Below are positions 1,618-28,773 of a DNA stretch of 28,773 nucleotides, piece after piece. The notes under the pieces are model-generated. The model was not told the DNA's origin. It did not search any database and worked only from the letters and a program-made list of their open reading frames with translations. The stretch lies in IMG/VR virus record IMGVR_UViG_3300032134_000013, positions 1 through 28,773 of that record. The stretch is one strand, 5' to 3'. The stretch is from a virus. The translations under genes were made by a program, and so were the position numbers. The stretch's first letter is position 1. Each line of letters begins with the position of its first letter.

Positions 1618-1631
1618 TACACGGTTATTAG
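1618..1631 (-). repeat. Copy 1 of 14-bp late-gene element CTAATAACCGTGTA
   Basis: Read on the minus strand this is CTAATAACCGTGTA. It contains the stop codon of the upstream virion gene and lies about 40 bases before the tail fibre start. Exact copies sit at 13011-13024 and 17369-17382. A further shared word, TAATCCTTAG (minus strand, 1603-1594), follows this copy and copy 2. At this copy TAACCG and a downstream CGGTTA could form a 6-bp stem. The function is unknown; a late promoter part, activator site or RNA-processing site are all possible. Confidence 0.6.
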
Positions 1632-4054
1632 AAGCTAGGTGAGGTTTCGCCTTTCTTCCACCAGAACCTCTGACCTTGTTCTTTACGCATTCGTTTTTCT
1701 GTACGCTTCCAGCTTGTCTTGGCTTTAGGGTCAGCCATGCGCTGGAATTGGTCGAATAACATACGCTCAGTAATTAGCCGGGTGTACCATAGTGAGTTGC
1801 CGGGCGTGTAGCTCTTTAGATACTTAGAAAATGCCCGTCCAACATTAGAACCTTCCCCTTCAAAATCAACGCCTTTCATAACAGTGAAGCCAAGCTCTGC
1901 GGTGTCTGACATAAGCCCAATGCCGGGGCCAGCTAATGTCGTTGCTAAGTTGGTGCCATAGCGGGATTTGCCATTCAAGCCTGTATATAGGAAGTCGCCC
2001 AATATCCCCATGCCGCCGCCTTGAATCATGGCAGCAAACAAAAAGTCAGGGCTATTTATATCTCTAGGGTTTTTACCTTTAGAAATATCTTTAAGCTGGA
2101 TAGCGAGGCCACCCATTATAGTTAAGCCAGCCACCAATCGGGTAAGATAAGCTAAGTCCCGTTTGCCCGTATAATCTTTGGTGACGGCCCTCATAATGTG
2201 CGTGTTAAATATAGAAATCGCAAAGCCTTTGTACATAGTTCCCATTCTTGCAAACTCGCCCATTACAGTGCCGCGCTGTTTGCCTGCGGTCATAATGGCG
2301 CGATCCCTTGCGCTTGGCATAGGGTTAGCAAAGTCCATCTCAGTGTTGATTGCGTCAAGTATCATTGAGGATAATTCATCTGCCTGCTTGGGAGTCACCC
2401 CATCAATCTGGCGAATGTTATCAGGACGGAAGTATTGAGTCCCCTGATTATCTTCAAGGGGGGCCTTGCGAATAACTTCCCACGCTTCATCTGTAACGCC
2501 ATAGCGCCGTAAAGTGGCTTGGAACTTAGTCTCAATTTCAGAAAGCGGTTTACCAACTTGGTTGCCGAGATGCCACTGAAAACTCATACCGAATGCGTTC
2601 CTGTGTGCCGAAGTCCATGACTGCAGCCCTGACGCTCTCATAAAAAATTCTGACAACTTAGCGCCCTTAGCTGAAGCATCCATTTCCCCGCCAAACCGCG
2701 CCGATGCTGTTGCTCGATGCGTCCATGAGTCAGCAACTAAATTTAGGTGGGCAGCAAGCGCCCTATGTGCGTCATTGGATGGATCAAGCTGCCCAACTAG
2801 CTCACTAGCCATCTTAGTGGCAGGAATGCCGTTATAGGCTCTAGTCATCTTGCCCATTATTGGATCGCCAATGGATGATAAGAATGCGCTACCTAACTGA
2901 GCAGCCACAAGGCCGTGACGCGCCCCGCCTGAAACATTGGCAATCTTCTGTGCGTACTTACCCTCTGCTATTGCGTCAGCTTGCCCTGACACCACATTAT
3001 AAGTTGCGTCCAATAGGTTTAAGAATTTCTTATCTTCAAGTCCAGCCATATCCTTAAGGTATTGGTATGCCTGCTTTGGGTTGGGGCCAAGCACCTCAAG
3101 TAATGCAATCTCACTACTCATGTGGCGTAAATGACCTGTCATTGTGGCGAATATGTCTGGCTCACCGAATTTCTCTTGATACTCCAACCACGACTTAGCA
3201 TCTTTAAATATAAGAAATCGACTGTCTTGGTGCTTGTTTGATAGTTTTTTGCCGCCCATTTGTCCCGCAGTTTGTGCAGATGCGCCGTTAGTGATGATGT
3301 TTTTATATGAGTCACGCAATCCTTTATCTAGCACCTCGTCACCTAAAGGCACCCCAGTATCATCCGTCATGCGCTCAACAGCCAGTCGAGGCTTAATGAA
3401 GTCAAGCCACGCATCTTCTGAAACTTTATTTACCCGGCGCATCTCATGGCCCTGTGGCAGCGCCCAATCATCACGCTTGCCAATATAGCCCCCTGCGCGA
3501 TTGAAGCGCTCACGCGCATATTCTGCCGCCTCAGTGAAGCTCTTTGCAGCCTTAGATGCGGTACTATCACCAGTGGCCTCACCAAATAACTCTCTTACCG
3601 CATTACGGAGTGTCACCGTATCCTGCTTTAACCCCAAGCCAGTAGTATGGAGTGCCTCAAGCCCGTCTTTAAAGCGGCTGTGTGTTTGACCTTCAATGGT
3701 CTTGGCGCGATAGTGAATATTGGCCCAAGGAGTGGCTCCTTGGTGAACTAAGTAATCTCTATCCAGTAGGCTCATAAGCCCAGCTTCCATGCCACGCGGG
3801 TGCGACTTAATGTTCTCTAGGTTGCGAGCCATACTGATCACTTGCAACGCTTTTTGATGTTTGGCGCGTTTCTTCTTAATGGCCATCTGTGTGAGTGCCA
3901 TCTTGGTGGCGATAGCGTCTAGCTGGGCCTCTGAATGCCCCTCTTTAATCGCTTTGTTTCGATACGCTTCAATGTCGGCATTAAGCTCGTCAGCCATAGG
4001 CTGGTCAATTATTTTCTGATTTAATGCGCTCGTTACGCAGGCGTGGTATTTCAT
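1628..4054 (-). CDS. Large internal (ejected) virion protein, T7 gp16 position
   Basis: This is an 808-residue protein. The start at 4054 is chosen because GGAG lies 8 bases upstream and the ATG overlaps the previous stop as ATGA; a GTG at 4063 is less likely. The middle region (FLIFKDAKSWLEYQEKFG and, a little further on, HMSSEIALLEVLGPNP, about residues 285-345) is a conserved block of large podoviral internal proteins and polyvalent phage proteins. The C-terminal third has hydrophobic stretches (around YLTRLVAGLTIMGGLAIQL and LFAAMIQGGGMGILGDFLY), as expected for a protein that enters or crosses a membrane during DNA ejection. No lytic transglycosylase motif was recognised. It is the last internal-protein gene before the fibre. 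The family assignment is firm at the level of virion structural protein; the ejection role is inferred from gene order. Confidence 0.7.
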   Translation of the reverse strand: MKYHACVTSALNQKIIDQPMADELNADIEAYRNKAIKEGHSEAQLDAIATKMALTQMAIKKKRAKHQKALQVISMARNLENIKSHPRGMEAGLMSLLDRDYLVHQGATPWANIHYRAKTIEGQTHSRFKDGLEALHTTGLGLKQDTVTLRNAVRELFGEATGDSTASKAAKSFTEAAEYARERFNRAGGYIGKRDDWALPQGHEMRRVNKVSEDAWLDFIKPRLAVERMTDDTGVPLGDEVLDKGLRDSYKNIITNGASAQTAGQMGGKKLSNKHQDSRFLIFKDAKSWLEYQEKFGEPDIFATMTGHLRHMSSEIALLEVLGPNPKQAYQYLKDMAGLEDKKFLNLLDATYNVVSGQADAIAEGKYAQKIANVSGGARHGLVAAQLGSAFLSSIGDPIMGKMTRAYNGIPATKMASELVGQLDPSNDAHRALAAHLNLVADSWTHRATASARFGGEMDASAKGAKLSEFFMRASGLQSWTSAHRNAFGMSFQWHLGNQVGKPLSEIETKFQATLRRYGVTDEAWEVIRKAPLEDNQGTQYFRPDNIRQIDGVTPKQADELSSMILDAINTEMDFANPMPSARDRAIMTAGKQRGTVMGEFARMGTMYKGFAISIFNTHIMRAVTKDYTGKRDLAYLTRLVAGLTIMGGLAIQLKDISKGKNPRDINSPDFLFAAMIQGGGMGILGDFLYTGLNGKSRYGTNLATTLAGPGIGLMSDTAELGFTVMKGVDFEGEGSNVGRAFSKYLKSYTPGNSLWYTRLITERMLFDQFQRMADPKAKTSWKRTEKRMRKEQGQRFWWKKGETSPSF

Positions 4055-7014
4055 AAGGCGCACTCCATGAGTCGCTCAACAGAATTAATTTCTCGATTAG
4101 CTTTCACCATCACTAAGTTCGATGGGCGCAACACTTCATTGCCGAACTCATCGATTTCTAGGATAGGTAGGTCTTTGGACGCGAGAGCATCTGCCTCGGC
4201 TATTTCAACATCAACTTGCTCGTCGAATGAAAGGTCTTGCTTGGAAGGAGCGTCTAGCTTTGTGGCATGTATGGCGCTACCAGCTCCATCAAGGTTTCCG
4301 TCCACTCGGACTGTGGCTCCCTGATGAACGCTGCTAGGTCGTTGTCGTCCATCGTCTGTAGATGCCCGTCCGACTCCAGTAGAGCGACTATCGCCGCTTT
4401 TTGCGCTTTGTTTAATTCTTGTTCCATTTGTTAACCCCAAGGTTTCAGTTCGTCCTGCTATTGGCAGGGTGACAAAATGTTCCATGCTGGAATCAATGTC
4501 ATTAAGTATACCTCTTGCGTCCAAACCATCCACTACTTTATCCATATCTTTAGGCATTTCTTTCTTAGTCCACCATGCCTCATCGGTATAGATGATACTG
4601 TTTTTGTTTAGGTTTAGTCGCTCCAGTAGTTTGCGAGTATCGTTATACGTTCCAATCTTTACAATTGGGTCAGGATAGCCTTTTGTGTTGTAGTATGGCG
4701 GGTCAACTATTCCCAAGACATGGTCGCCTTTCGGGTTGGCTACATCGTAGGAGTTGCCGTTAACGTATTCGATTTCAATGCCGCGCTGCTCGGCAATCTC
4801 GATATTCTTCCTTAACTCTGCAAATTGTTTTGATAAGAGTTTAGTTACCGCGTCAACTTGCTCTTGACTAGTGCCGTCTTTTATCCGAGTACCATAAGAC
4901 GCCTCACCATAATCCACTACGGCAGCAAGAGCTCCACGCTCAGCGTCATTTATATCAACCCTGCCATCCATTTGGCGCTTAACCCGGCGAGATAGCGCAG
5001 ACGCACTCGTAACTCCTACCGCGTCCATATCTTTCGCAGCTAAATCTAATATTTCTTTAGGCTTTCCGCTACTAAGCAGCTCTCCAAGCGTATCGCCATT
5101 TTGATGAATGTATTTAATCTTATCAATACGGTCAGGATTCATTTCATATAAGCGAATCTTCTTCACATTAGGAAAGTGCGTGAGTGCGTTGTATATACCC
5201 CACCCACCGCCGCCGCCGAAGTAATCGTCCACTTCGGTTATTTTAGCCCGGTCAGCATTATTCCAAACATGGCGAATAGCATCAGTGGTGGCCTTGGCCA
5301 TTTTCTGCTTCCCGCCCTGAAACGTTGGCATTACCCCGGTATGGGCTTTATGTAATTCTGGCCCCTTCCTTGCGCCAAGAGAATCTATCTCTGGCAAATC
5401 AAACCCGCGACTCATGTTTGGTGTTGGGGTAGTGATCTCAATATCAGCTTCTATCGCTTCCTTAATCGCCACAACTTCTTCTGGCACTGGGGTTGGTTTA
5501 GATAATTCACCGCGCTCTGCCTGTAGTGCAAAAAGCTCCTGATCTTGAGCCTTGGTCGATACGTCCAGTTCTTCAATCCGAAGGGCTGCGGACACCGGGT
5601 CAAACGTGTCGTTGGCTATTTTAACCTTTAACCTTCGCAGTTCATTTTCAGCCGCATCAGCCGCCTTAGCTGAATCATAGCGAGCCTCTAATTGAGTCAT
5701 CCGTTCTTCAATAGGGCGCTGTATCTCAGTATTTCTTGCGCGTGTCGCAGCTACAGATTCTTTATAAGACACAGCATCAGAGCCTGCCATTAGGTCATAG
5801 TTGGCATCAGTGCGACTTTGTAGCCGCATTTGAACCTTATTGCCCTCAGATACCGCTTCATCTATCTCCTTACGAAGGGCTTTTTTCTCTGCGCGAGTTA
5901 ACTTACTAGCCGCGATTTGCTCCACATCAGGGAATCTAGCTCGATCAGAGTGATACGCATCCACCTTAGCGGCTAGCGCATTACGCTCATTTGTGATTGT
6001 TGCAATATCACCTTCTAGCCGGGTGACCTCTAAATCAACCGCTTCGATATTACGAGCCTTTATTGTGCTAGACGCAGCTTCTCCATCAATAGGGTTGCCT
6101 GCTAACGCCTCGCTCTGATGCATTCGCATTTCTTCAAGGCGCTGGGTTAATTCTTCTGGTGTCGCAGCATTTGTATTAGCAACTAAATCTTGTGCATCCT
6201 CAAGGTTATCGATATGCTCTCGCACTTCTGGCGTATCAGGCATCTCGCCAGACTTTATCTTTTTGCGTAAAGAGCGAACAACAATCGAGCCGCCGCCGTA
6301 CATTAGAACTGACACAAGGCCAACGCTGGCTACGTCAGCCATCACTTGATCAAAGGTAGGCTCTACGCCAGCATCGCGCTTAAACTTGAACGTACCCGCC
6401 TGAATGCCAGCCTCAATGGATGATTCCAGTAAGCCAACCTTCGCTGTTGTTTTTAAAAATCCTGCCGCACCCTTCGCTGCTTTAAATTCAGGAAATAGCA
6501 TTGCGAGCGCAGTTAGCGGGTCTTTTAATGCGCCATATCCTGTGCCGCCTAGCCAGCCTAAAGTGCCAGCCAAGGTGTCTGATTGAGCATAGTCTGACTC
6601 TGCCTTAGCTCTTGAATCACGAACCTTCTGCCCCGCTTGCTCATACAATGCTTCAACAGTTTGGAAGCCTGCATCAGGGTAATCTTTTTGTAGCCGCTCA
6701 ATATTGCGGAATAAAATGTCGTGGTGAGCGCCACTGGGCAGACCGCCCGGCCTATCTTCCCTCTCTTTAGCGTAGTCGAGAGTTTGGCTGTACTGCATCT
6801 CACTGATAAGCGCTTCATTTGTGAATAAAGCAGGCTCGTACTTTTCGGCCAGACTCATCTGCTCATCAAAGCTATCCCCAATAAGGTGGCTCACTTGTAA
6901 AGAAGATGCGGTGTAATCATATTCCTGAGTTGTGGATTGGAATACAGTCGCAATGCCGGGCGTTGTGCCTTTGTAGGCTACTGAGGTGTCATGCTTTAAG
7001 CTGGCTAATCCCAT
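4051..7014 (-). CDS. Large internal virion protein with embedded Dam-like adenine-N6 DNA methyltransferase domain
   Basis: This is a 987-residue protein. Residues 1-550 look like a podoviral internal core protein: hydrophobic Gly/Ala-rich segments near 150-250 and long charged coiled-coil stretches near 260-510. Residues ~560-830 carry the signature of a class-alpha N6-adenine methyltransferase (Dam/D12 type): FQGGKQK (565-571, motif X-like), DDYFGGGGGWG (596-606, AdoMet-binding motif I), an acidic residue after the next strand (E624 in LYEMNPDR), and IVDPPYYNTKGY with catalytic DPPY at 771-774. The C-terminal ~150 residues look disordered and acidic. The ATG shares its A with the TAA of the upstream gene. 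The likely role is methylation of incoming phage DNA or another early step after ejection, by analogy with P1 DarB, a methyltransferase-bearing virion protein. Packaging of this protein is inferred from gene position. Confidence 0.72.
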   Translation of the reverse strand: MGLASLKHDTSVAYKGTTPGIATVFQSTTQEYDYTASSLQVSHLIGDSFDEQMSLAEKYEPALFTNEALISEMQYSQTLDYAKEREDRPGGLPSGAHHDILFRNIERLQKDYPDAGFQTVEALYEQAGQKVRDSRAKAESDYAQSDTLAGTLGWLGGTGYGALKDPLTALAMLFPEFKAAKGAAGFLKTTAKVGLLESSIEAGIQAGTFKFKRDAGVEPTFDQVMADVASVGLVSVLMYGGGSIVVRSLRKKIKSGEMPDTPEVREHIDNLEDAQDLVANTNAATPEELTQRLEEMRMHQSEALAGNPIDGEAASSTIKARNIEAVDLEVTRLEGDIATITNERNALAAKVDAYHSDRARFPDVEQIAASKLTRAEKKALRKEIDEAVSEGNKVQMRLQSRTDANYDLMAGSDAVSYKESVAATRARNTEIQRPIEERMTQLEARYDSAKAADAAENELRRLKVKIANDTFDPVSAALRIEELDVSTKAQDQELFALQAERGELSKPTPVPEEVVAIKEAIEADIEITTPTPNMSRGFDLPEIDSLGARKGPELHKAHTGVMPTFQGGKQKMAKATTDAIRHVWNNADRAKITEVDDYFGGGGGWGIYNALTHFPNVKKIRLYEMNPDRIDKIKYIHQNGDTLGELLSSGKPKEILDLAAKDMDAVGVTSASALSRRVKRQMDGRVDINDAERGALAAVVDYGEASYGTRIKDGTSQEQVDAVTKLLSKQFAELRKNIEIAEQRGIEIEYVNGNSYDVANPKGDHVLGIVDPPYYNTKGYPDPIVKIGTYNDTRKLLERLNLNKNSIIYTDEAWWTKKEMPKDMDKVVDGLDARGILNDIDSSMEHFVTLPIAGRTETLGLTNGTRIKQSAKSGDSRSTGVGRASTDDGRQRPSSVHQGATVRVDGNLDGAGSAIHATKLDAPSKQDLSFDEQVDVEIAEADALASKDLPILEIDEFGNEVLRPSNLVMVKANREINSVERLMECAL

Positions 7015-9005
7015 TAGTCTTTATACTCCAGCACATAATCTTCTCCTTGAGTATTTTTAATGAACATGCCGTTACGACTCAGCATGTATCGGCCTTGCTC
7101 ACCATTAGGCACTAAAGCAATATCGCCATCACTTAACTCTTCCTGCACTTGATTCCAATCTAAGTCAGAATCAATGCCGGCAAAATCAGCCTCATCTAAT
7201 CGGTTAATCCATTTCTTGACATGGTATTCCTTCATGCCTCTGCGCGGGGTCATAAACATATAGCCGTTACGCTCATAAACGTTACCCACTACAGCTTGTA
7301 ATGCTTCTTCATAACGATCTTCATTGAAGTCGCCGCTATTATCCCCAGCGCGCATTGATAGCCCCGCATAAGCGAATTTAACCGCATCCAGCATTCCTTG
7401 TTTAATATCGTGATCACCCTCAAAAAGGTCTTTATCACCATCAACGATATACTCGTCAAAATGCACCTTAGCATCGTCTTTACCGGGGCCGTAGTGACCT
7501 AGACCCCCCTCGCCATCCGCTAGCTTCTTGCCGTTATGAACAAGCTCTACAGCTAGGCCAGCATCCGCTTGTGACATTAAGTCACCGACAACCGCTAAGG
7601 TGCGGTAGCCTTTGGTAAATATCTTACTTAATAGGTCGTGCGCGTTACTCTCGGTTGCTTTTACAAGGCTTTCTAGCGTTCCGTAGCCTTGGGCTGAGTC
7701 TAAATGCTTGGATAGCGCGTCAATCTCATCATCCTTAAAGAGTGATGTATTAATCCCCCAATGCTCATCAACTAAAGCCTTGCGTGTCACTTGCTCTTCT
7801 AGGTAGCTTGATATATCGCCAGACTCTATCGCTTCGCGTAGGGTGGATTGCTGGGGCTTTAATAACCCCATATTAACTGCGGCTTGCTGCGGGTCTTTAT
7901 TGATTGAAGAGATAGCGCCATCCAACATATTAACAATGGTGTCACGCCGCTCCCCTTCGGTAACGTCACCCACTGCGGTAGCAGATAGTGCGCCATGCGC
8001 CTCGATTAGATCATCAAGCGAGTGTGCGTCACCATGCAGTATAGATTGCCCATCAGCGTACCAAGTGAGTGAGTTTTGAAGGTCTCGCCTATCTTGCTCA
8101 TTCGTGACTTGCTCCACCAAATTAATGTAAGTCTCTACAAATCCGTCAGCTAGCATCGCGCCACTTGTAATGATGTCTTGGTGCCTTTTCGCTTCATCAG
8201 TAAATAGCTTCTGCTGCGCTTTTTGCTCGGCCTTTAACTGCCTCTCTGCCGCAGCAGCTTGAACATCATCACGATCTAGAATTACCCGCATATAGGTATT
8301 CAGGCTATCCTGCTCCCCCTGATCGAACCATTTAGGGTAGGCTATATTTTCAGCAAACTCACTCCCTTTCTTAGCGCCATGAGCTAATTGGAAATCGCTC
8401 TTAATTTGATTCGCACTATACTCTTGGCGAAAAGCGTCAAGGTCACTTACTTGCTTGGCTGGGGATATAAGATTAGTGGCTAACGCCTCGCTTTGCGCTT
8501 GCTTAAACTTCTCTAACCCATCGGTGGCAGTCATTAAGTCGATTCTTGACTGCTCATAAGCTCCCCCCAAATGAGCGACACTACGCTTACTCATTTCGCC
8601 ATTAATGGTATGAGTGTACTGAGTTAATAAATTTCTAGAGGCTTGCGATATGGCGCTTTTGTTCGCCGTCATCTTCACCCGGTCACTATGGCTTTTGACG
8701 ATTTGCTTATATTTAGTGTTGAACTGCTCGATCATCGCCCCGTGTGTAGGGTCGCCATTTTCGTCCACGGCTGGCGCATCTTGAATAGTTCGCCATGTAT
8801 CAGCCGCAGCTTGGTCAAGGCTATTGGTTAAGCGACTGTACTCTTCGTCAGTCTCAGCCTTTTGTACTTTGGCTTGGTAGTCATCAACCACCTTAGTCAA
8901 CGCTTGGCTGGTACGCATCTTGGCTTGAGCGGCAGACGATATAGCACCAAGGCTGAGTTGTTCAGCACCCGGCACACCTGTTTGATTTATATTTGGTATT
9001 CTCAC
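7014..9005 (-). CDS. Internal virion protein, T7 gp15-like position
   Basis: This is a 663-residue protein that begins with GTG, overlapping the upstream TGA as GTGA. The N-terminus MRIPNINQTGVPGAEQLSLG followed by long Ala/Gln/Lys/Glu-rich helices (about residues 30-330, with a coiled-coil-like AAAERQLKAEQKAQQKLFTDEAKRHQ region) is typical of the middle internal core protein in T7-like and BPP-1-like phages. The C-terminal half is acidic and globular-looking, with no catalytic motif recognised. It lies between the gp14-like gene and the methyltransferase-bearing gene, all in one overlapping chain. Related proteins form the internal core above the portal and are ejected into the cell envelope; that role is inferred from position and architecture. 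Confidence 0.68.
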   Translation of the reverse strand: MRIPNINQTGVPGAEQLSLGAISSAAQAKMRTSQALTKVVDDYQAKVQKAETDEEYSRLTNSLDQAAADTWRTIQDAPAVDENGDPTHGAMIEQFNTKYKQIVKSHSDRVKMTANKSAISQASRNLLTQYTHTINGEMSKRSVAHLGGAYEQSRIDLMTATDGLEKFKQAQSEALATNLISPAKQVSDLDAFRQEYSANQIKSDFQLAHGAKKGSEFAENIAYPKWFDQGEQDSLNTYMRVILDRDDVQAAAAERQLKAEQKAQQKLFTDEAKRHQDIITSGAMLADGFVETYINLVEQVTNEQDRRDLQNSLTWYADGQSILHGDAHSLDDLIEAHGALSATAVGDVTEGERRDTIVNMLDGAISSINKDPQQAAVNMGLLKPQQSTLREAIESGDISSYLEEQVTRKALVDEHWGINTSLFKDDEIDALSKHLDSAQGYGTLESLVKATESNAHDLLSKIFTKGYRTLAVVGDLMSQADAGLAVELVHNGKKLADGEGGLGHYGPGKDDAKVHFDEYIVDGDKDLFEGDHDIKQGMLDAVKFAYAGLSMRAGDNSGDFNEDRYEEALQAVVGNVYERNGYMFMTPRRGMKEYHVKKWINRLDEADFAGIDSDLDWNQVQEELSDGDIALVPNGEQGRYMLSRNGMFIKNTQGEDYVLEYKD

Positions 9006-9429: not shown

Positions 9430-11379
9430 TTAATCTCCTACGCTCAACGTGCCGAACAGTGAAACGATGTGGCAAGCTAAGGGTAAATCCTGCTCAATAG
9501 TGATTCGACCATCACGGTCATAGCCTAAGTTACGCACGTTAATGTCTTCTGAAACCACAGGCTCTTCATTGCCGTAGTTCGTGTTAGGTGAGCGAACAGG
9601 TGGACGCTGACCGTTGATGGTTGGGATGGCTGATTGCTCTAGTCGAACAAAGATTTCATTCCACCGCTTCTTCTTGCCAAGTGTGGTGCCTGAACCCGCA
9701 TTGGAGCCGGGTCGTGTTGGGGTGAGTTTCGAGATGTACTTGAGGCCCACCTTAATCTCTGTGGCCGCATAGTTCAGAGCGATAGCACCACTTGCAACCA
9801 CTAGATCGGGGTGTACAGCGCCATCGGCTAAAACTTGAACCGTCTTACCTTCTAGGTGAGATAAGCCCGTCACGGCGCTCGTAGAAGCTCCTGAGTAGGA
9901 AATCATAGAGTCTAGGTAGTCATTAGGCGTGTACAGCTCGATATACTGCTTTGTAGCGCCGTTAATGGTGCGCTCAACCACAAACCAATACTGATCAGGG
10001 CCATCCTCTGAGATCACAGTGAGTGACTTGTACTTGCCATCAGTAATGTGACGATGCCAGCCAATGACTTCTTGGGTCGGCTCATAGGTCAGCATCAGTA
10101 AAACGCCATCAGCACGTAAGCCCATGAGGACTGAATCAGGCACATGGGAATAACTTAATGTGGTCAATCCACCTGTGGTGATGTGTTCAGCCAAGAAAGT
10201 CATATCATCCGATTGGAATGAATCGCTTTCCCATTTATACGCCACGTTACGCACCTGTGTACCACTACGCTGGATAAAGAACACATCAGAACCCACATAG
10301 GCGGGATGGCCTAACTTAGATCCGTAAGAGGTTTGACGGCGTACATCGACATTAGTAGGGGTGATGGCTGATTCATTGCCGCCAGTAATACGGAACTCAC
10401 CGCCTGATGTGCCGACAATAAGAACGCGCTGTGCCGCCATCCACTTGATGTTATTTACCCGATCCGAGGCAATGGCGTAACTGAGGCCATCATCGGCTTT
10501 CGCGCCGGGATTGAAGTCTTCATAAATACCCGGCTTACTGCCCCATAGGGTTTGAGGCTTGTGTGTCGTGCCGCCATACCAAAGACGCTGCTCGTAGAAC
10601 ACGACTGAGGATGGGAAGCCTCTTAATGTAGAGAATGCGCCCTCTTGCCACAGGTTAGTCGCCGTGGTCGTGGTGGGCATATAATCCAAGTCTTTGATGG
10701 TGATATTAACCACTGTGCTGGAGGTGTAGCTATTCACCCGAACCCACACCACTTCACCCGCTGAGTTGCCGGGATCAGTGTCTACCAACCAATCAGTGCC
10801 AACATGGGAACTGTCAAACAAAGCAGCACTAGCGGTGAGGTTTTGAGTTGCAGAAGTCGTATCAGTGAAGGCAAGGGTCAATGTCTCGTCTTGGTTAACA
10901 GGCAGGAATGGGCCTTTCTTGAATGCCTCATCAACCAGCGTCCAGTTGTCATGGGCTAGTCGGGTCAACTTCCGAGGCTTATGGCTTGGGTGAACAATCC
11001 ACATCACATCGGCGTTCTGAGCAAATTGTAGTTCATTCACTTCCGTATGGGTGTAGGTCGTGGTGATCTCATAGGTTGAGCCACTCGACTGTACTTGACC
11101 ACCATTGGTATAGAAGCGAATGTAGTTATTACCAAACTCTAAAACATAGGTCTGATCCACACTGTACTCAAAGGGAATCAACCGGGTGGTGTGGGCTGAG
11201 TTTTTCACTTCATTGATAAAGCGAGTACCACCTCTACGTTTGGCTCCGCCATGAGGTAAGGCCATGAAGTTTTCCATCTTCTCGCAGCCAGAGCTGTACT
11301 TCGGTGAGTCAGTGCGCCCCATCAGTCGTGGGGATAATTCACCCGCCGCGAAGCTGTTGATGATTGGGGTTAGCCTCAT
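9430..11379 (-). CDS. Tail tubular protein B / nozzle, T7 gp12-like
   Basis: This is a 649-residue protein with its ATG overlapping the upstream TGA (ATGA). The opening MRLTPIINSFAAGELSPRL followed by SGCEKMENFMALPHGGAKRRGGTRF (quoted in two pieces) is the hallmark of podoviral nozzle proteins. The rest is beta-rich, as expected for a beta-propeller nozzle that closes the tail tip. The length is a little below that of T7 gp12 (~794 residues). It is paired with tail tube A upstream, the usual order in this virion type. There is no sign of truncation. Confidence 0.88.
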   Translation of the reverse strand: MRLTPIINSFAAGELSPRLMGRTDSPKYSSGCEKMENFMALPHGGAKRRGGTRFINEVKNSAHTTRLIPFEYSVDQTYVLEFGNNYIRFYTNGGQVQSSGSTYEITTTYTHTEVNELQFAQNADVMWIVHPSHKPRKLTRLAHDNWTLVDEAFKKGPFLPVNQDETLTLAFTDTTSATQNLTASAALFDSSHVGTDWLVDTDPGNSAGEVVWVRVNSYTSSTVVNITIKDLDYMPTTTTATNLWQEGAFSTLRGFPSSVVFYEQRLWYGGTTHKPQTLWGSKPGIYEDFNPGAKADDGLSYAIASDRVNNIKWMAAQRVLIVGTSGGEFRITGGNESAITPTNVDVRRQTSYGSKLGHPAYVGSDVFFIQRSGTQVRNVAYKWESDSFQSDDMTFLAEHITTGGLTTLSYSHVPDSVLMGLRADGVLLMLTYEPTQEVIGWHRHITDGKYKSLTVISEDGPDQYWFVVERTINGATKQYIELYTPNDYLDSMISYSGASTSAVTGLSHLEGKTVQVLADGAVHPDLVVASGAIALNYAATEIKVGLKYISKLTPTRPGSNAGSGTTLGKKKRWNEIFVRLEQSAIPTINGQRPPVRSPNTNYGNEEPVVSEDINVRNLGYDRDGRITIEQDLPLACHIVSLFGTLSVGD

Positions 11380-11936
11380 GCGCGAACTCCCTCAAATAAG
11401 GTGGCGGTAATGTCTTCTCGGCCTACCTCTGCGCCGTCATACATAGACGCTTCGGTAATGGCTCTCTCTGCCAGCCCCCACATATCGGTTGATAGTGAGC
11501 GGTTTTGACTGAGGGCATAAGACACCTCGGCACCAATGCGACACGCCAGAGCAAATACAAAGGCAGGGTCGAACTGGCCGGGGTCAGTAATTCGTGCAAC
11601 ATACTTAATGGTTGCGGTATCGGTATTGCAAACAAGGGTGCGGCCCTCAATGCGGTATTGGGTAGACTCTTTAACGTCTAGTACAGCAAGGCAGTGTGGG
11701 TCGTTAGGCAAGCTGTATGCCTTGTCATAACCCCATGCGGGTGCTGTGGATAGCTGGGCTAAGGTGGCCCGTTGGATGGCACATGACCAAGGGAATGCCC
11801 TGAGTACCGCGTCACGCGCATCGGCGTAAACAGCATTACACACATTAGCTTCGGTTGAGCCGTCACTCAGAGAGGTGATGGTATTAGCACCTAGCATGGC
11901 TAACGCCCGATTACATATTGAGACTTCACTAGCCAT
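11376..11936 (-). CDS. Tail tubular protein A / adaptor, T7 gp11-like
   Basis: This is a 186-residue protein. MASEVSICNRALAMLGANTI with SDGSTEANVCNAVYADARDAVLRAFPWSCA just after is the conserved N-terminal part of tail tubular protein A (gatekeeper/adaptor), and the length is close to that of T7 gp11 (~196). AGGAGT four bases before the ATG gives a strong ribosome site. The gene begins only 15 bases after the intrinsic terminator that follows the capsid gene, and no promoter is obvious between them, so its expression probably depends on read-through or antitermination. It overlaps the nozzle gene by ATGA. Confidence 0.88.
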   Translation of the reverse strand: MASEVSICNRALAMLGANTITSLSDGSTEANVCNAVYADARDAVLRAFPWSCAIQRATLAQLSTAPAWGYDKAYSLPNDPHCLAVLDVKESTQYRIEGRTLVCNTDTATIKYVARITDPGQFDPAFVFALACRIGAEVSYALSQNRSLSTDMWGLAERAITEASMYDGAEVGREDITATLFEGVRA

Positions 11937-11996: not shown

Positions 11997-12848
11997 TTAC
12001 TCAGTACAGTCAACCTGTACAACACACTCGTCCTGTACGCGGGTTGCGCCAGCTACGAATGACAAGTACACCTGATGGGCATAAGACTTGTCAGGGCGTA
12101 CATCGATCTTAGTCTTCACATCAGAACCAATACCTAAGCCCATTGCACTCTTGGTGAATGCGAAGCAAGTACGGGTAGTGGACGCTAGACCTAGACGCTC
12201 AGAGCGCAAGAACTTGAAGCCCATGAAGGTATCAATGTCACCTTGAACCAACGCTTTCACAGAGTTGTAGTCGCTAGACTTGATCTCAGTGGTGTTCAAC
12301 AAATCAGAGATCTGCTTAGAACCCAACACAATGAAACGATCTTCATCGGGATCAACATCATTACCGTCAAGAATCTCTTTAGTAGAGATCAACTTAGCAA
12401 GGGTTAAGCCTGCGGAGCCGTGAGCGATCTTCTGTGCTGCTGGTAGAGCGATTGAAGTGCCGTCACCGTCTGTGGCTGTACCTGTAGCCGCTGCAATGAT
12501 CAAATCATCGATGGCGCGAGCCATAGAGTTTGCACCAGAGCGAGCATAATGGCTCTCAGGAGTAACCAACATACGCACCTTATCTTCGTTATCAATGAGG
12601 TCAGCCCAATGATAGTCAGACATAGTTGCAGTACGGCGTGAGTGAGGAACATCAAGAACAGGGGTGTTGGTGTGGCGAGTTGTTTTCGCAACAGCAGCAA
12701 CCGTACCTAGACGCTCAAAGTGGAATTTCTCGCCAGTTACAGATTGCTCATTTACTGAACTGCGTAAACGTGAACCCTTCTGCTGGGCAAGGTGGATTAA
12801 ATTGTCCTGAAACTGCTGGACGAACGCTTGTGTGATTGTATTAGCCAT
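11997..12848 (-). CDS. Major capsid protein, BPP-1-like phage capsid family
   Basis: This is a 283-residue protein. The N-terminus (MANTITQAFVQQFQDNLIHL, then SRLRSSVNEQSVTGEKFHFERLG) and the later ALVQGDIDTFMGFKFLRSERL fit the family of ~280-340-residue podoviral capsid proteins that includes Bordetella phage BPP-1. A Gly/Ala/Thr-rich loop lies near residues 120-140. The position is right: it follows the scaffold gene and is followed by a strong terminator, which suits a product needed in hundreds of copies. GGAG eight bases upstream of ATG is a good ribosome site. The HK97 fold is inferred from the family; the sequence itself shows only the family-like segments. No separate decoration (cement) gene lies next to it. 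Confidence 0.85.
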   Translation of the reverse strand: MANTITQAFVQQFQDNLIHLAQQKGSRLRSSVNEQSVTGEKFHFERLGTVAAVAKTTRHTNTPVLDVPHSRRTATMSDYHWADLIDNEDKVRMLVTPESHYARSGANSMARAIDDLIIAAATGTATDGDGTSIALPAAQKIAHGSAGLTLAKLISTKEILDGNDVDPDEDRFIVLGSKQISDLLNTTEIKSSDYNSVKALVQGDIDTFMGFKFLRSERLGLASTTRTCFAFTKSAMGLGIGSDVKTKIDVRPDKSYAHQVYLSFVAGATRVQDECVVQVDCTE

Positions 12849-13862: not shown

Positions 13863-14051
13863 TTAGTTCTCCACTATGTCCGCGATTTGTATATAGATGC
13901 TACGCTGACCTTCGCGGAAAGCCGTTTCGCATGGGTCTTTGGTAAACGAAATTCGATCACCATAGGCCGCTTTCATATTGGCCAACATACGCTGACCTGT
14001 CTTGGTGCTAAATAGCTCCTTAACGTCTTTTTCAAACTGAGGTTTAGGCAT
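13863..14051 (-). CDS. Small Bbp19-like phage protein
   Basis: This is a 62-residue protein, MPKPQFEKDVKELFSTKTGQ and onward, with the C-terminal DPCETAFREGQRSIYIQI segment. The pattern (short phage protein with a FREGQR-type segment, encoded between portal and scaffold) matches the Bbp19 family named after Bordetella phage BPP-1. Its start overlaps the portal stop by eight bases and it ends two bases before the scaffold. The function is unknown; a minor head component is possible. Confidence 0.65.
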   Translation of the reverse strand: MPKPQFEKDVKELFSTKTGQRMLANMKAAYGDRISFTKDPCETAFREGQRSIYIQIADIVEN

Positions 14052-15654
14052 TAACCATCTGCTCCAGTTGTGCCGCTTGGGTCGCGCCTGCTAATTCTTG
14101 CTGGCCCTGTTCCATCTCGGCTTGTTGTTGCTGCTGTTGTTGACGCGCTTGACGCATCTCGCCCACTTCTTCATTGCCACGTAATATGTCAGCAGGAGCG
14201 CCCAATCGGTCACTGATAGTGCGCCCTGCCTTATCCACATCAACAATGTCGAGTACATCGGGATTGACCTGTGCGAGTTGCATAATCCCTTCGATAGCGC
14301 GTTGGATGCCTGTGACTTCATCCATCTTCTGAGATCGTGCTAACGGGCCAACGTATTCAATATCGAGATCACCTCCTACTTCCTGTAAGACTTCGGGCAT
14401 TGGTGGTAACGCTTGACCACGCAACATGGAATAAAACGCTCGCTCAACAATCGGGTTCAAGAACTCAGATTGAAGACGGCCAAGGGTTGGGCCTAATAAG
14501 CGTTGCATTAACTCATAACGCACCTGAACCTCAGTGGCCGTCATTTGTGGACCATCTTGTAACTCAAGTTGATCAGAGAAGAAGATACGGCGTACAGAAG
14601 CACGTACATCAGAGAGCATGAGTTGATCCGCGTTCCAGTTGGTCGCGTTCACAATTGGCTCTAGGTTGTTCATGTCACGAACATAGGTCACTGTGGATGG
14701 GCGCATATCAATCTTGCCCAAGATGCCGTTTTGCATGGCCTTTAATGGCGGATCTATGGATTTTTCCCACGCTTTCATGGCCAGCTTACGCGACTCATTT
14801 AGTGTCTTAATGTCAGGTCGAGCAGTACAGCCCGGCCCAAAGCCATAGACATCGCCTGTGGTCTTAGCCCAGCGTGGCACCATGAATGGCAACTCGTAAT
14901 AACCTGTCTCTTGGCAAATCTTCTTATCGATCACACTAATGTAATAGCAAGCCCATGGGCGTAGGTGGGGTGGTGCAACCATTGCAGGCTCACCCTCCAG
15001 TTCTCTAGGAAACACGGCTTGAATATAGTCAAACTCTTTATCAGGATCTTTCTCTAAGGCTTTCATGGCCTTGTCGCCACACTGATCACCAAACTTCTGA
15101 TTAGCTTGACGCGCAGTGAGTTTCAATTTACGGAACACCGTATCAATACGGCCCTCTACGGACTCAGCAATCACCACCTCAGCTAAGTGACACGCTCTAA
15201 AGTTAAAGCCATCAAAGGCAGCTTCTTTGGTCTTCACATCAAACTGGAGTGCGGCAGTGCCAAAGCCCACCATATCTTGATACGCCTCTGCTACCTCGGT
15301 TGAGAAGTTAGACTTGCCGAACTCTTGGAAGATGCTTTTCGAGCATTGCTCTAACCAATCCTTCGCGTCTTTGTGTTCGTTTAATTCGTCTTGACGGAAG
15401 CGTAGGCCGAACCACTTGGTCGATGGGCTAGTCAATGAGCCATGCAATGAGGCGGATAGGATTTGTAGCGCATGAATCGCAGTGGAGTCATACACCTCTG
15501 CTGACCGCTTGGAGCCTTTAGTATTGGTCGTAATGAAGTCGGCCTTGCCCGGCATTAGGAATGTAGACAGCTCTTCCCACATTTGATCCCAGTTAGCTCG
15601 GTCTGCCTTGAGTCGGTCGTGGCGCTTAATTAACGCTTCGGGTGATATATTCAT
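14044..15654 (-). CDS. Portal protein (head-tail connector), T7 gp8-like
   Basis: This is a 536-residue protein, the same size as T7 gp8. The start MNISPEALIKRHDRLKADRA, then WDQMWEELSTFLMPGKADF and DSTAIHALQILSASLHGSLT, are typical of the podoviral head-tail connector family (Pfam Head-tail_con). Twelve copies form the vertex through which DNA is packed and ejected. The C-terminus (about residues 500-536) is Gln-rich with a seven-Gln run, encoded by a CAA/CAG-type repeat. Its ATG shares a base with the TAA of the upstream Lys/Pro-rich gene and it has no strong ribosome site of its own, so translation is probably coupled. Confidence 0.93.
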   Translation of the reverse strand: MNISPEALIKRHDRLKADRANWDQMWEELSTFLMPGKADFITTNTKGSKRSAEVYDSTAIHALQILSASLHGSLTSPSTKWFGLRFRQDELNEHKDAKDWLEQCSKSIFQEFGKSNFSTEVAEAYQDMVGFGTAALQFDVKTKEAAFDGFNFRACHLAEVVIAESVEGRIDTVFRKLKLTARQANQKFGDQCGDKAMKALEKDPDKEFDYIQAVFPRELEGEPAMVAPPHLRPWACYYISVIDKKICQETGYYELPFMVPRWAKTTGDVYGFGPGCTARPDIKTLNESRKLAMKAWEKSIDPPLKAMQNGILGKIDMRPSTVTYVRDMNNLEPIVNATNWNADQLMLSDVRASVRRIFFSDQLELQDGPQMTATEVQVRYELMQRLLGPTLGRLQSEFLNPIVERAFYSMLRGQALPPMPEVLQEVGGDLDIEYVGPLARSQKMDEVTGIQRAIEGIMQLAQVNPDVLDIVDVDKAGRTISDRLGAPADILRGNEEVGEMRQARQQQQQQQAEMEQGQQELAGATQAAQLEQMVNA

Positions 15655-17368: not shown

Positions 17369-17382
17369 TACACGGTTATTAG
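17369..17382 (-). repeat. Copy 3 of 14-bp late-gene element CTAATAACCGTGTA
   Basis: This is an exact 14-base copy of the element at 1618-1631 and 13011-13024. It includes the TAA stop of terL and lies 66 bases before the start of the Lys/Pro-rich gene that opens the portal block. The TAATCCTTAG companion word is absent here. Confidence 0.6.
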
Positions 17383-18614
17383 ATACTACTAACGACTTGA
17401 GGGAGGGTGGATTGCGGCTCATTCCAGCCCACAGCAAAGTACCTGAACGCATCAGCGCCGTGACTAGAGAAGTCGTGAACCGGGCGAGACTTGTAGACTT
17501 GGTTAATCTCGTCATACTCTTTGTGATAGGTCGATAAGCAATCCAATCCCAACTTACACTTCTGCTCATCGAACCAGCATCGGTTGAACAGTGAGCGAAC
17601 AGCCTGAACACCATCCATAATAGGAATATTCTTGACCACATTGAAATGAAGCCCCATATCCCCTGCTTGCTCTAATCGTGATCGGCCAGTGCCTAGTTCT
17701 CTGACCCGTATGTCATGTGGCCCCCAATGTTCGTCATAGATATACGGCTTCTCTCTCAGTAGCTTCACATAGAATGCCAAGCCCTCACCGGAATGTTCCT
17801 CGTAATCAATGACGCGAATCTCTTTGCCTACGGATTGGGTGAACCAGATTGAGGTGGAGTCAGCTACCCCTAAGTCCCACCATGTTTGTACAGGCACAGC
17901 TTGCTCCCACGGCACGTTTGTTATGCGACCCTCGGCCTTGGCCTGCCTCATCTGTTCGGCGTAGTAAGCGCCCTTATGTGCGGTCATACACTCCCCCTCC
18001 CAAACATGTTGATAAAGATCCGGGTCAGTGGCTTGAAGGTGTAGGCGCTCTTTGTCTAGCTCTTTGGGGAACCAAGGGTTTGAGTCCCAGTTGGCCTTAA
18101 CCACCACACTGTCTGGTGGCGGTGAGATCACGAAGCGTTGATAGGTGTCATCATGCTGCCTCATCGGGTTAAAACTAACCCAAATCTGACTACCCTCTTT
18201 GCGGATGGTGGGAATCAAGGTTTCCCAGCTAGACTTAGTGACCGCCTCCGCTTCTTCGACCCATACAATGTCAATGCCCTCCATCGACTTGATCTTATTG
18301 ACGTTGGAGCGCAAGCCCTCAAAGATAAAGCGTGAGCCATTCTTGCCGATGATTTGGGTCTTTTGAATCTCAAAGAATGAAGTCATGCCCAGCCGATCAA
18401 TGGTGTCGGATAGAAGTTGAAGCACCGAGTCTGCCACCGAGCGTTGAATCTCACGGGCGCAGAGTATGCGAGTCTCTTTGCTATAGGCGCTGATGATCAA
18501 TAACTGAGCAATCGCCCATGACTTGCCAGATCCACGACCACCGTGTGCGATACGATAGCGGTGCTTCTGTGTGGCAAATGGGTGAAAGATTGCGGGTAGC
18601 TCAGTCTCAATCAA
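17379..18614 (-). CDS. terL: Terminase large subunit
   Basis: This is an ATP-driven DNA packaging motor with a nuclease domain. With a TTG start at 18614 the protein has 411 residues; the frame is open up to an ATG at 18662, but that adds 16 residues lying entirely inside terS. Walker A is GGRGSGKS (25-32) and Walker B is IDIVWVEE (114-121). Nuclease acidic residues are likely D247 (WWDLGVADS), D301 (HDIRVRE) and D388 (HGADAFRYF). The layout fits the Terminase_3 (PBSX-like) family. AAGGA lies ~11 bases before the TTG, and TTG overlaps the terS stop by eight bases. It acts with TerS and the portal. Confidence 0.93.
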   Translation of the reverse strand: MIETELPAIFHPFATQKHRYRIAHGGRGSGKSWAIAQLLIISAYSKETRILCAREIQRSVADSVLQLLSDTIDRLGMTSFFEIQKTQIIGKNGSRFIFEGLRSNVNKIKSMEGIDIVWVEEAEAVTKSSWETLIPTIRKEGSQIWVSFNPMRQHDDTYQRFVISPPPDSVVVKANWDSNPWFPKELDKERLHLQATDPDLYQHVWEGECMTAHKGAYYAEQMRQAKAEGRITNVPWEQAVPVQTWWDLGVADSTSIWFTQSVGKEIRVIDYEEHSGEGLAFYVKLLREKPYIYDEHWGPHDIRVRELGTGRSRLEQAGDMGLHFNVVKNIPIMDGVQAVRSLFNRCWFDEQKCKLGLDCLSTYHKEYDEINQVYKSRPVHDFSSHGADAFRYFAVGWNEPQSTLPQVVSSI

Positions 18615-18897
18615 GGCTAGGTATATCCTTAAAGCTAACAAGAATATCCTGCACTGCGTCAATTTCTAACTCACCTGACACTTCAATCGACTTACGCTTA
18701 GGCGCGACATACTGGGCTAGATCCTTAAACGCCGCTAACGCCAAATGTAGATCACCCTCATCCATTGCTTTCTTGGCAATCTTAGCCATGCCCTTGATGG
18801 GATCACAGTTAAGCCCTACTAGTTGATCAATGATTGACTGAGTGCGTTTGTTAGGCACTCCCTTCTTGCGCCCACTATTGCCTTTAGTTCCTGCCAT
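18607..18897 (-). CDS. terS: Terminase small subunit-like protein
   Basis: This is a 96-residue protein starting MAGTKGNSGRKKGVPNKRTQ, the basic Gly/Lys/Arg-rich opening of DUF5681-type small phage proteins found directly before terL. A helical body follows (MAKIAKKAMDEGDLHLALAAFKDLAQYVAP), with an acidic tail. AGGGAAAAG precedes the ATG. The small subunit recognises phage DNA for packaging. The assignment rests on the N-terminus and the overlap with terL. Confidence 0.8.
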   Translation of the reverse strand: MAGTKGNSGRKKGVPNKRTQSIIDQLVGLNCDPIKGMAKIAKKAMDEGDLHLALAAFKDLAQYVAPKRKSIEVSGELEIDAVQDILVSFKDIPSLD

Positions 18898-23856: not shown

Positions 23857-24489
23857 ATGAGCCACGCAGGAAATCGAATCCGCGACAGACGGAAAGAGAA
23901 AAATTTAACTCAACGCAGCTTGGGGGCATTGATCGGCGTCAGTGCAACGAGTATTACCTATTGGGAAAGGGGAGATGTCGAACCAAAAAACAAGCATTTA
24001 GCTGCTTTAGCGAGAGCTTTAGATCTAGCACCAGACTATATTTTATATGGTGCAACATTCGGGGGTGAGGTTTCGCTCACACCTATTCACGCCCGTGTGC
24101 CGTTAATCAGGTGGGAGGAAGTTAGTAAGTTACAAGGAAAGTCTATGGAGTTAGACGAAAAAGCTGCGGATTGGCTGTATTGCCCTACGCAGTGTGGTAA
24201 ACGGACGTTTGCAACAACCGTTCAGGGTGATTCAATGACCTCACCCTATCCAAACAACAAGTCATATCCAGCGGGAATTGTTATTTTTGTTGATCCAGAT
24301 GCCACGCTATCCACAGGATCGCGGGTTTTGGCAAAGAGAGATAATTCCACCGAAGCAACATTTAAGGAGTACATTAAAGATGGTGGCGTAAGCTATTTGA
24401 AACCGATCAACCCACAATACCCAACGGTAGTGCTGGAGAGTGATTCGGAAATTATTGGAGTGATTATCGGTAGCTATTCAGCCGAGTAA
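23857..24489 (+). CDS. cI: CI-type prophage repressor with S24 peptidase domain
   Basis: This is a 210-residue protein. Residues 5-60 form an XRE-type helix-turn-helix (RIRDRRKEKNLTQRSLGALI, TSITYWERGDVEPKNKHL). Residues ~80-205 form the LexA/CI peptidase-like domain with Ser126 (GDSM) and Lys160 (VLAKRD). The start has GAGAG seven bases upstream. Where related repressors carry a cleavable Ala-Gly after VPLISWV-type segments, this protein reads VPLIRWEEVSKLQGK, without Ala-Gly, so RecA-stimulated self-cleavage may be lost or moved. It is divergent from cro and should keep the prophage silent. Confidence 0.9.
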   Translation: MSHAGNRIRDRRKEKNLTQRSLGALIGVSATSITYWERGDVEPKNKHLAALARALDLAPDYILYGATFGGEVSLTPIHARVPLIRWEEVSKLQGKSMELDEKAADWLYCPTQCGKRTFATTVQGDSMTSPYPNNKSYPAGIVIFVDPDATLSTGSRVLAKRDNSTEATFKEYIKDGGVSYLKPINPQYPTVVLESDSEIIGVIIGSYSAE

Positions 24490-27558: not shown

Positions 27559-28563
27559 ATGGCACCCCGTAAGCGCATCAGAGGCCCAGAATGGTTGCCT
27601 GTTCGTTGTTATGTAGGTAAGGCGGCGTATGAATATAGGCCGCGCTCTGGCGGCTGTGTCAGGCTTGCCGGACTAACAGCAGACAAAGCGATTGTCATGG
27701 CTAACTACTATCACGCGGTATCGCTACACCAAGAAAAGACAGGCGACTTCTCGCAGCTAGTGCGTGAGTATTTTACTGGCGCTAACTACCTTCGTTTGGC
27801 AACACGAACCAAGCGCGACTATGCGAACTACTCAGAGCGCGTCCTTAAAATCTTTGGCTCAATGAATCGCCATCGCATCAAGCCGCACCACATTCGTCAG
27901 TACATGGATAAGCGAGCCGTCGACGCGCTCACCCAAGCAAACCGCGAACACTCGTTTCTAAGCGCTGTATTTTCGTGGGGCTATGAGAATGGCAAGGTGA
28001 AGGTCAACCCGTGTGTAGGTGTGCGTAAATTCTACGAGCCGCCGCGTGATAGATATATTGAGGATTGGGAATATCAGGCTGTGCTAGCAGAGGCCTACAT
28101 TAAGTGGCCACTACTGGCTGCGACAATGGAGATCAGTTATTGCTGCGCGGCAAGGCAAGCCGATGTATGGGCGTTGACCCGTGAGCAGCTAAGAGAGCAA
28201 GGCATATACATTAAGCAGGGTAAGACAGGCGTTAAACAAATCAAGGAATGGAACCCTCGACTTCGTGCCGCAGTAGATTTGGCACTATCGGTTCAGACTG
28301 TTCCGAATTTCAAACTCGTTTTCTGTGATGCGAAAGGCAATCACCCGGCGCAAGGCACAATGCGCAATTGGTATGACAAAGCGCGACAGCTTGCAAAAGA
28401 TAAACATGATGGTGAATGGAATAGTGATTTCACCTTCCACGACATCAAGGCGCGAGCCATTTCAGATTTCGATGGCGACAAGCAGAATTTTTCAGGTCAC
28501 AAGACCGAAGCGCAAGTCAGAAGTTATGATCGGAAAGTAAAGGTCACGCCGACCCTAAAATAG
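27559..28563 (+). CDS. int: Phage integrase, tyrosine recombinase
   Basis: This is a 334-residue enzyme that cuts and rejoins attP and attB. It has an N-terminal arm-binding part (~1-65), a core-binding SAM-like domain (~66-150) and a catalytic domain. The catalytic set reads R199 (CAARQADVWAL), K222 (QGKTGVK), H294 in HDIKAR with Lys at the usual second Arg position (K297; R299 two residues on), H314 (SGHKTEA) and the nucleophile Y323 (RSYDRK), 11 residues from the end. The HDxKA variant occurs in other phage integrases. The gene faces the tRNA-Cys 97 bases away, the expected target. Confidence 0.92.
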   Translation: MAPRKRIRGPEWLPVRCYVGKAAYEYRPRSGGCVRLAGLTADKAIVMANYYHAVSLHQEKTGDFSQLVREYFTGANYLRLATRTKRDYANYSERVLKIFGSMNRHRIKPHHIRQYMDKRAVDALTQANREHSFLSAVFSWGYENGKVKVNPCVGVRKFYEPPRDRYIEDWEYQAVLAEAYIKWPLLAATMEISYCCAARQADVWALTREQLREQGIYIKQGKTGVKQIKEWNPRLRAAVDLALSVQTVPNFKLVFCDAKGNHPAQGTMRNWYDKARQLAKDKHDGEWNSDFTFHDIKARAISDFDGDKQNFSGHKTEAQVRSYDRKVKVTPTLK

Positions 28564-28659
28564 GGCCGACCTGTATGAATGAACAGCACTGTATATTCGG
28601 AAAAATATTCGGAACTGTTCGGAAGTTAGTAACCACTATGGCTACAACCCCCACCAATA
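28564..28659. other. Attachment region with three TTCGGAA repeats (candidate integrase arm sites)
   Basis: TTCGGAA occurs at 28596-28602, 28608-28614 and 28618-28624 (12 and 10 bases apart) between the integrase stop and the tRNA-Cys 3' end. Tyrosine integrases bind short direct repeats (arm sites) here. An imperfect inverted repeat (AGGTC...CCCTA / TAGGG..GACCT, 28541-28572) overlaps the integrase stop; it lacks a T-run. Confidence 0.5.
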
Positions 28660-28733
28660 TGGAGGCCGAACGCGGAGTCGAACCGCGGTAAACGGATTTG
28701 CAATCCGGTGCATGGCCACTCTGCCATTCGGCC
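28660..28733 (-). tRNA. tRNA-Cys(GCA), probable integration target
   Basis: A 74-base cloverleaf: acceptor stem GGCCGAA/TTCGGCC, anticodon loop with GCA (complement of 28699-28701), T loop GGTTCGACTCC, and encoded CCA at 28662-28660. Its 3' end faces the integrase, so its 3' half is probably the att core, with the 3' part contributed by the phage. The gene appears intact. Confidence 0.93.
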
Positions 28734-28739
28734 AAAAAA

Positions 28740-28773
28740 TGGAGCGGGAAACCGGATTCGAACCGGCGACCCC
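28740..28773 (-). tRNA. tRNA-Gly, 3' part (cut by window)
   Basis: The minus strand ends GGTTTCCCGCTCCA after a T arm (GGTTCGAATCC), as in tRNA-Gly(GCC) of gammaproteobacteria, with CCA encoded. It is six bases upstream of tRNA-Cys; the pair is a common gly-cys tRNA operon. The anticodon is outside the window, so Gly is inferred from the acceptor side and the neighbour. Confidence 0.8.

Follow-up and report, generated by a model that had tools for sequence, protein, structure and literature searches.

DarB, a constituent of the phage P1 head, gives DNA protection in cis (PMC5512222). The methyltransferases found in polyvalent proteins belong mostly to one clade, the EcoKI/TaqI-like gamma class with the motif NPP(Y/F), and are nearly always accompanied by an SNF2 helicase and LPD36 (PMC5512222). 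The virion-borne methyltransferases described so far are of this DarB type, i.e. gamma-class enzymes that are joined to a helicase and form part of very large proteins. They are also known from short-tailed phages: the DarB-like protein gp69 of the Bcep22-like podovirus JC1 was found in purified virions by mass spectrometry (PMC9144972), and DarB-like methyltransferase proteins are present in Parlo (PMC6606913) and Atu_ph08 (PMC6630229). Exchangeable injected domains are likewise an established idea, the polyvalent concept (PMC5512222). No literature on virion-borne or ejected Dam-type methyltransferases was found beyond the work on DarB and the polyvalent proteins.

Here we describe a protein of the virus record IMGVR_UViG_3300032134_000013, the whole of which (28,773 nt; 28.8 kb) was analyzed and is referred to as the window. 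Judging from the sequence and a structural model, this protein carries a domain of a Dam-fold, helicase-free family that appears to be new in such proteins. The original prediction likened it to P1 DarB and saw its novelty in the short-tailed ejection machine; the likeness to the proposed role of DarB is retained here as probable, but the novelty does not hold, since podoviral DarB-like virion methyltransferases were already known from the phages named above.

Gene map and position of the 987-aa protein

On the basis of its gene content, the source of the window is a temperate podovirus, with genes for a portal (PF12236), a capsid protein (PF19821), a terminase, an integrase beside tRNA-Cys and a CI-type repressor. 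The integrase adjoining tRNA-Cys indicates the temperate character. The main features are:

1628..4063, minus strand: virion structural protein, 811 aa, the conserved next gene (phrog_684, E 1.8e-165)
4051..7014, minus strand: candidate ejection ("polyvalent") protein with methyltransferase domain, 987 aa (ORF; stop/start overlaps with both neighbors)
7014..9005, minus strand: gp15-like protein by position, 663 aa (same-position relatives with 25-49% identity; Vibrio phage homologs)
9002..9475, minus strand: internal virion protein, gp14-like by position, 157 aa (phrog_418 "internal virion protein", E 9.3e-10)
9430..11379, minus strand: tail protein (phrog_376, E 2.7e-202)
11376..11936, minus strand: tail protein (phrog_394, E 3.2e-52)
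11997..12848, minus strand: major capsid protein (PF19821, E 7.9e-89)
14044..15654, minus strand: podoviral head-tail connector (portal; PF12236, E 3.8e-133)
17379..18662, minus strand: terminase large subunit (PF04466, E 2.1e-44)
23857..24489, plus strand: CI-type repressor, HTH and S24 peptidase (PF00717, PF01381)
27559..28563, plus strand: integrase (PF22022, E 9.7e-7), adjoining tRNA-Cys
28660-28733: tRNA-Cys (ARAGORN)

The window also encodes a dUTPase (PF00692; 19874-20356, minus strand), a NinG-like protein (PF05766; 20347-20829, minus strand) and a Rad52-like annealing protein (PF04098; 25630-26337, plus strand). At positions 28640-28773, tRNA-Cys is followed, where the contig ends, by what appears to be the 3' portion of another tRNA; this segment is probably host chromosome with the attachment site. 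An attachment-site repeat was looked for elsewhere in the window and was not found.

The genes of the virion module overlap and follow the order phrog_394 and phrog_376 tail proteins, phrog_418 (157 aa), the 663-aa gene, the 987-aa gene and phrog_684 (811 aa). The 987-aa ORF is thus the large ORF after the gp14- and gp15-like genes, i.e. in the gp16-like position, and the arrangement corresponds to the one reported for podoviral ejection proteins, gp14-gp15-gp16 (PMC8954989). A phrog_684-type next gene is found in 112 phage records, and in named phages the same gene order flanks a slot whose product varies widely in length, from 404 to 963 aa.

A profile of the N-terminal scaffold, made from relatives with the window omitted (Z set to 100,000), matched residues 6-355 of the window protein (E 1.8e-34). 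Among named Vibrio phages, a scaffold profile picked up a 618-aa frame of ZCVPP1 (E 2e-31) and the syntenic protein of K294 (E 3e-8); its match to the syntenic protein of virus SI2 was weak (E 2e-4). A sequence search of the PDB gave no match of the window protein to gp16 of T7 or P22, and the AlphaFold2 model of the N-terminal part (pLDDT 48) was too poor for a structure search. The term ejection protein is applied here as a candidate assignment, from gene order and homology to proteins whose location is itself mostly predicted. Of the podoviral, internal-core-like surroundings that had been proposed for the domain, the position in an ejection module is supported by the same gene order and scaffold homology.

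The predicted Dam-fold domain and its family

The layout of the 987-aa protein and the motifs of its methyltransferase domain are as follows:

5950..6999, minus strand: N-terminal scaffold, residues 6-355, common to syntenic proteins of related phages
6265..6360, minus strand: hydrophobic stretch, residues ~219-250 (Kyte-Doolittle 19-residue mean up to 1.88)
4435..5331, minus strand: predicted Dam-fold methyltransferase domain, residues ~562-860 (family alignment, AlphaFold2 model, EcoDam match)
5308..5322, minus strand: FQGGK, motif X-like, residues 565-569; F565, G567 and K569 family-invariant
5197..5229, minus strand: DDYFGGGGGWG, motif I (AdoMet loop), residues 596-606; D597, F599-G603, W605 and G606 invariant in full-length members
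4693..4704, minus strand: DPPY, motif IV (catalytic), residues 771-774; DPPYY (D771-Y775) invariant in all six full-length members
4570..4590, minus strand: YTDEAWW, residues 809-815 (alignment); Y809, T810, D811, A813 and W814 invariant
4054..4242, minus strand: C-terminal tail, residues ~925-987, weakly like the tails of syntenic proteins as judged by eye, without a statistic

The original prediction placed a methyltransferase at window positions 4501-5340, corresponding to residues 559-838, and read there a GGK motif, an AdoMet loop and DPPY in Dam-like order. All three are present as described and conserved in the family. The order GGK (X), FxGGG (I), recognition region and DPPY (IV) is that of the alpha class (Dam/D12). 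Shuffling the 987-aa protein 20,000 times never produced the ordered set; DPPY alone arose in 60 shuffles and F.GGG in 179. An origin of the motifs by chance is rejected by these shuffles, by the family conservation and by the fold described below. The placement of the domain was correct, but its extent (residues ~560-830) was too short: it spans ~562-860 and ends just past a conserved AGR.E.LG motif. Weak Pfam matches of the glycine loop to a NAD-binding family were below the cut-off and are explained by the common Rossmann-like loop.

The region 4405-5379 was modeled with AlphaFold2 from a seven-sequence alignment (pLDDT 78.8, pTM 0.79). In a Foldseek search, Mcbe1 and E. coli Dam took the top ranks, and most of the named top matches among viral predicted structures were adenine-specific or D12 methyltransferases. 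VIA-align superimposed EcoDam on the model over 224 residues (Z 14.5, 3.6 Å rmsd), followed by Mcbe1 (Z 13.7), DpnM (13.6) and T4 Dam (13.4); the best non-Dam methyltransferase reached Z 11.7 over 158 residues. The Dam match extends over model residues 14-323. It takes in the helical stretch that separates motif I from motif IV, where Dam has its target-recognition part. Structure prediction and comparison with Dam/D12 enzymes, suggested earlier as a check that could have revealed no methyltransferase fold at all, yielded a Dam fold.

Pfam, PHROG, NCBIfam and PDB sequence searches did not recognize the domain of the window protein. The Pfam D12 model (PF02086), which was detected in 14 of 14 control genomes, found no match in the window record or in seven related ones at a threshold as loose as E 10. 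The isolated domain of one family member matched MethyltransfD12 weakly (E 0.042; 14 bits, the cut-off being 22 bits), and this was its only match. We interpret the domain as a putative Dam-fold DNA adenine methyltransferase domain lying outside the Pfam D12 model, with predicted N6-adenine activity.

Scanning of viral contigs for back-translated FGGGGxWG, followed by a profile search (one contig had been found earlier), identified the domain in seven further viral contigs, which share ~27-38% identity with the window. The family therefore comprises eight viral records, and all relatives are uncultured viral contigs. No convincing relatives were found among 50,697 phage records and in plasmids. 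Two scans of cellular genomes also returned none, although these were pattern based and of limited sensitivity, so that relatives could be missed. Six sequences span the whole domain, two further stretches being cut mid-domain, and across these six F565, G567, K569, M572, D597, F599-G603, W605, G606, E624, D771-Y775, Y780, Y809-T810-D811, A813, W814, R855 and E857 are invariant. Catalytic motifs held invariant at such low overall identity form the pattern expected of a selected, active enzyme.

Every family member sits in a very large ORF (989 to 4,684 aa). The methyltransferase polypeptides of the relatives often carry ART-PolyVal, ddrB-ParB, MutS_I (MutS domain I) and phosphoribosyltransferase-like domains, so that several enzymatic domains accompany the same methyltransferase there, against one in the window protein. 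No SNF2 helicase match was obtained in the window protein or in the giant proteins of relatives that were scanned. Pfam scans likewise gave no LPD match; LPD36, which lies N-terminal to the methyltransferase in the DarB type, may lack a model in the library used.

One of the related records, L003 (IMGVR_UViG_3300044505_000028; 43 kb), has halves of the methyltransferase gene at both ends (ORFs of 1,026 and 2,059 aa). Such a split of the giant gene points to a record that is probably circular or circularly permuted.

An exchangeable middle in the slot protein

Close relatives of the window phage (capsid proteins 84-92% identical) encode, in the same place, a protein with the same N-terminal scaffold. 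A methyltransferase was searched for in these slot proteins and none was found. Their contents are:

L005, 15967-19368: Zeta-type kinase (PF06414, E 1.4e-33) and a ParB-like stretch seen by eye
L029, 6679-10431: DUF7178 (PF23802)
L008, 7275-12224: DUF7178 (PF23802)
L009 (6205-10443) and L047: cargo other than methyltransferase, Zeta-type kinase or DUF7178

The comparison of L009 with L029 gives direct evidence for replacement of the middle of the slot protein in one piece, with both ends retained: identity between the two proteins is 77% in residues 1-547 and 86% in the last 253 residues, but L009 residues 548-1159 show no similarity. As cargo of the same slot, DUF7178, a family of unknown function, may be an injected early effector.

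The last ~250 aa of the L009 and L029 slot proteins contain an EEIIGHYG-type segment resembling the zincin-like peptidase motif of polyvalent proteins, without a Pfam match. Between the terminase and portal genes of the window, a 549-aa protein (15654-17303, minus strand) has no family match. In most relatives its alignment is limited to the last ~210 residues, which suggests that its front part may be exchanged too.

Slot proteins with a transglycosylase are found in other phages. The product gp4 of E. coli phage vB_EcoM_APEC is annotated as a lytic transglycosylase and holds ddrB-ParB, and the slot protein of an Acinetobacter phage combines a weak SLT_4 match with ddrB-ParB. No lytic transglycosylase domain was recognized in the window protein. 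The earlier view that a methyltransferase stands in place of a transglycosylase agrees with these syntenic proteins, the evidence being an annotation in the first case and the weak match in the second.

In the more distant records L203-L206, a tail protein resembling phrog_376 (E about 1e-33 to 1e-37) comes first, followed by a gene of ~610-740 aa and then by the giant methyltransferase protein. The association of the methyltransferase with the ejection position therefore recurs. No GC step was seen at the borders of the domain in the window protein, by which a recent insertion of differing composition is rejected.

Possible role at DNA entry and comparison with known systems

We consider it, on balance, probable that the 987-aa protein is a gp16-like ejection protein whose swappable cargo, a Dam-fold methyltransferase, methylates the entering DNA early and thereby counters restriction. 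Three points favor such DarB-like methylation of delivered DNA: where the gene lies, the conservation of its catalytic residues, and the precedents set by DarB of P1 and by JC1 gp69. The helical N-terminal half would form the conserved scaffold and the middle-to-C-terminal part the swappable cargo site. The protein would be made late and incorporated into the internal core, from which it would thread out before the DNA; passage through the portal would require the domain to unfold and then refold. Residues ~219-250 are the sole strongly hydrophobic stretch of the protein, possibly a membrane segment, and lie N-terminal to the methyltransferase. If the topology is like that of T7 gp16, the part behind this segment would be in the cytoplasm, and the enzyme would face both cytoplasmic AdoMet and the incoming DNA. 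Tethered at the genome entry point, it would take AdoMet from the host and methylate adenines of the incoming DNA, at whatever sites it may recognize, before restriction enzymes or other modification-sensing defences attack. GATC avoidance in the window is only mild (124 observed against 139 expected) and uninformative.

The gene belongs to the late structural module, so the enzyme would be present during DNA packaging. An active Dam-like enzyme could then methylate DNA in the producing cell, in late infection or at packaging, and so protect the progeny, the virion fusion only coupling it to assembly. This explanation deserves some weight but is unlikely, because a free-standing phage Dam would suffice for it, whereas the domain is part of a giant polypeptide in every record, often beside domains of injected proteins.

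Dam-type marks regulate transcription, the phage is temperate (integrase, CI repressor), and the alternative cargo of such slots (Zeta-type kinase, ParB-like, ART-type) has diverse targets. An injected methyltransferase might on these grounds act on host DNA, or as a regulator of early transcription, lysogeny or host defence, instead of protecting the genome. We regard this as improbable: the few injected copies are unlikely to methylate a whole host chromosome, and the DarB precedent favors protection in cis (PMC5512222).

The cytoplasmic part of T7 gp16, gp16-C, binds DNA without catalysis (PMC8954989), and in our model the loop after DPPY is of low confidence; both would fit a catalytically dead methyltransferase fold serving as a DNA- or AdoMet-binding clamp of the ejection machine. 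That neither DPPY nor the AdoMet loop varies among the full-length members, whose overall identity is ~30%, is unexpected in a dead enzyme and makes such a clamp quite improbable. There is very little to be said for modification of RNA or protein instead of DNA: the core is common to many kinds of class I methyltransferases, and aviRa (an rRNA methyltransferase) was among the Foldseek matches, but only Dam-type enzymes match the whole length with Z above 12, and the domain has the DPPY and the motif order of an alpha-class DNA adenine methyltransferase.

Several points speak against the preferred reading, early methylation of the entering DNA: the sequence libraries do not recognize the domain, the ejection assignment draws on gene order and on homologs of mostly predicted location, and the domain would have to pass the portal unfolded. 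Moreover, the small number of copies might not suffice to modify the whole genome before restriction, since the protein, unlike DarB, has no motor domain. A more specific and distinctly tentative "mark-as-you-enter" version is that a motor-free Dam-fold methyltransferase is held on its gp16-like scaffold at the inner-membrane entry, as one module of a slot for exchangeable early counter-defence cargo in environmental podoviruses. An SNF2 translocase would then be unneeded, because ejection itself would pull the genome past the active site. A compact family of Dam fold occupying the ejection slot would represent a separate solution from the DarB type, open to study as one motor-free domain. The cargo slot itself, with near-identical scaffolds around wholly different middles, offers a simple route to other early-acting phage effectors, through inspection of its occupants.

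The Dam/D12 alpha class (EcoDam, T4 Dam, DpnM; PF02086) shares with the window domain the motif order X, I, recognition region, IV and the fold over the whole length (Z 13-14.5). However, the window domain shows only 10-18% identity to these enzymes, below Pfam recognition, and they are free-standing, whereas domains of the window type are embedded in virion-module proteins of ~1,000-4,700 aa. T7 gp16 and gp16-like ejection proteins occupy the same place in the tail/internal-protein cluster and are likewise large, probably helical and subject to domain swapping (PMC8954989). The window protein differs from T7 gp16 in having no detectable sequence similarity to it and a predicted methyltransferase instead of the transglycosylase.

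DarB of P1, JC1 gp69 and the proteins of Parlo and Atu_ph08 resemble the window protein in combining an adenine methyltransferase domain with a large virion-module protein and a proposed action at DNA entry. They are of the gamma class, with NPPY/F and an SNF2 helicase, whereas the window family has a predicted Dam fold and DPPY, the latter in all full-length members, and no SNF2 match; membership of the window protein in the DarB type is rejected on these grounds. The polyvalent proteins (Iyer et al. 2017, PMC5512222) are similarly large and multidomain, with exchangeable enzymatic domains, and relatives carry ART-PolyVal, ddrB-ParB, MutS_I, PRTase-like and Zeta-type domains. The window protein is smaller than is usual in this class and has a single recognizable enzymatic domain, but domain exchange on a common scaffold within a virion/ejection module is present here as it is in the polyvalent proteins.
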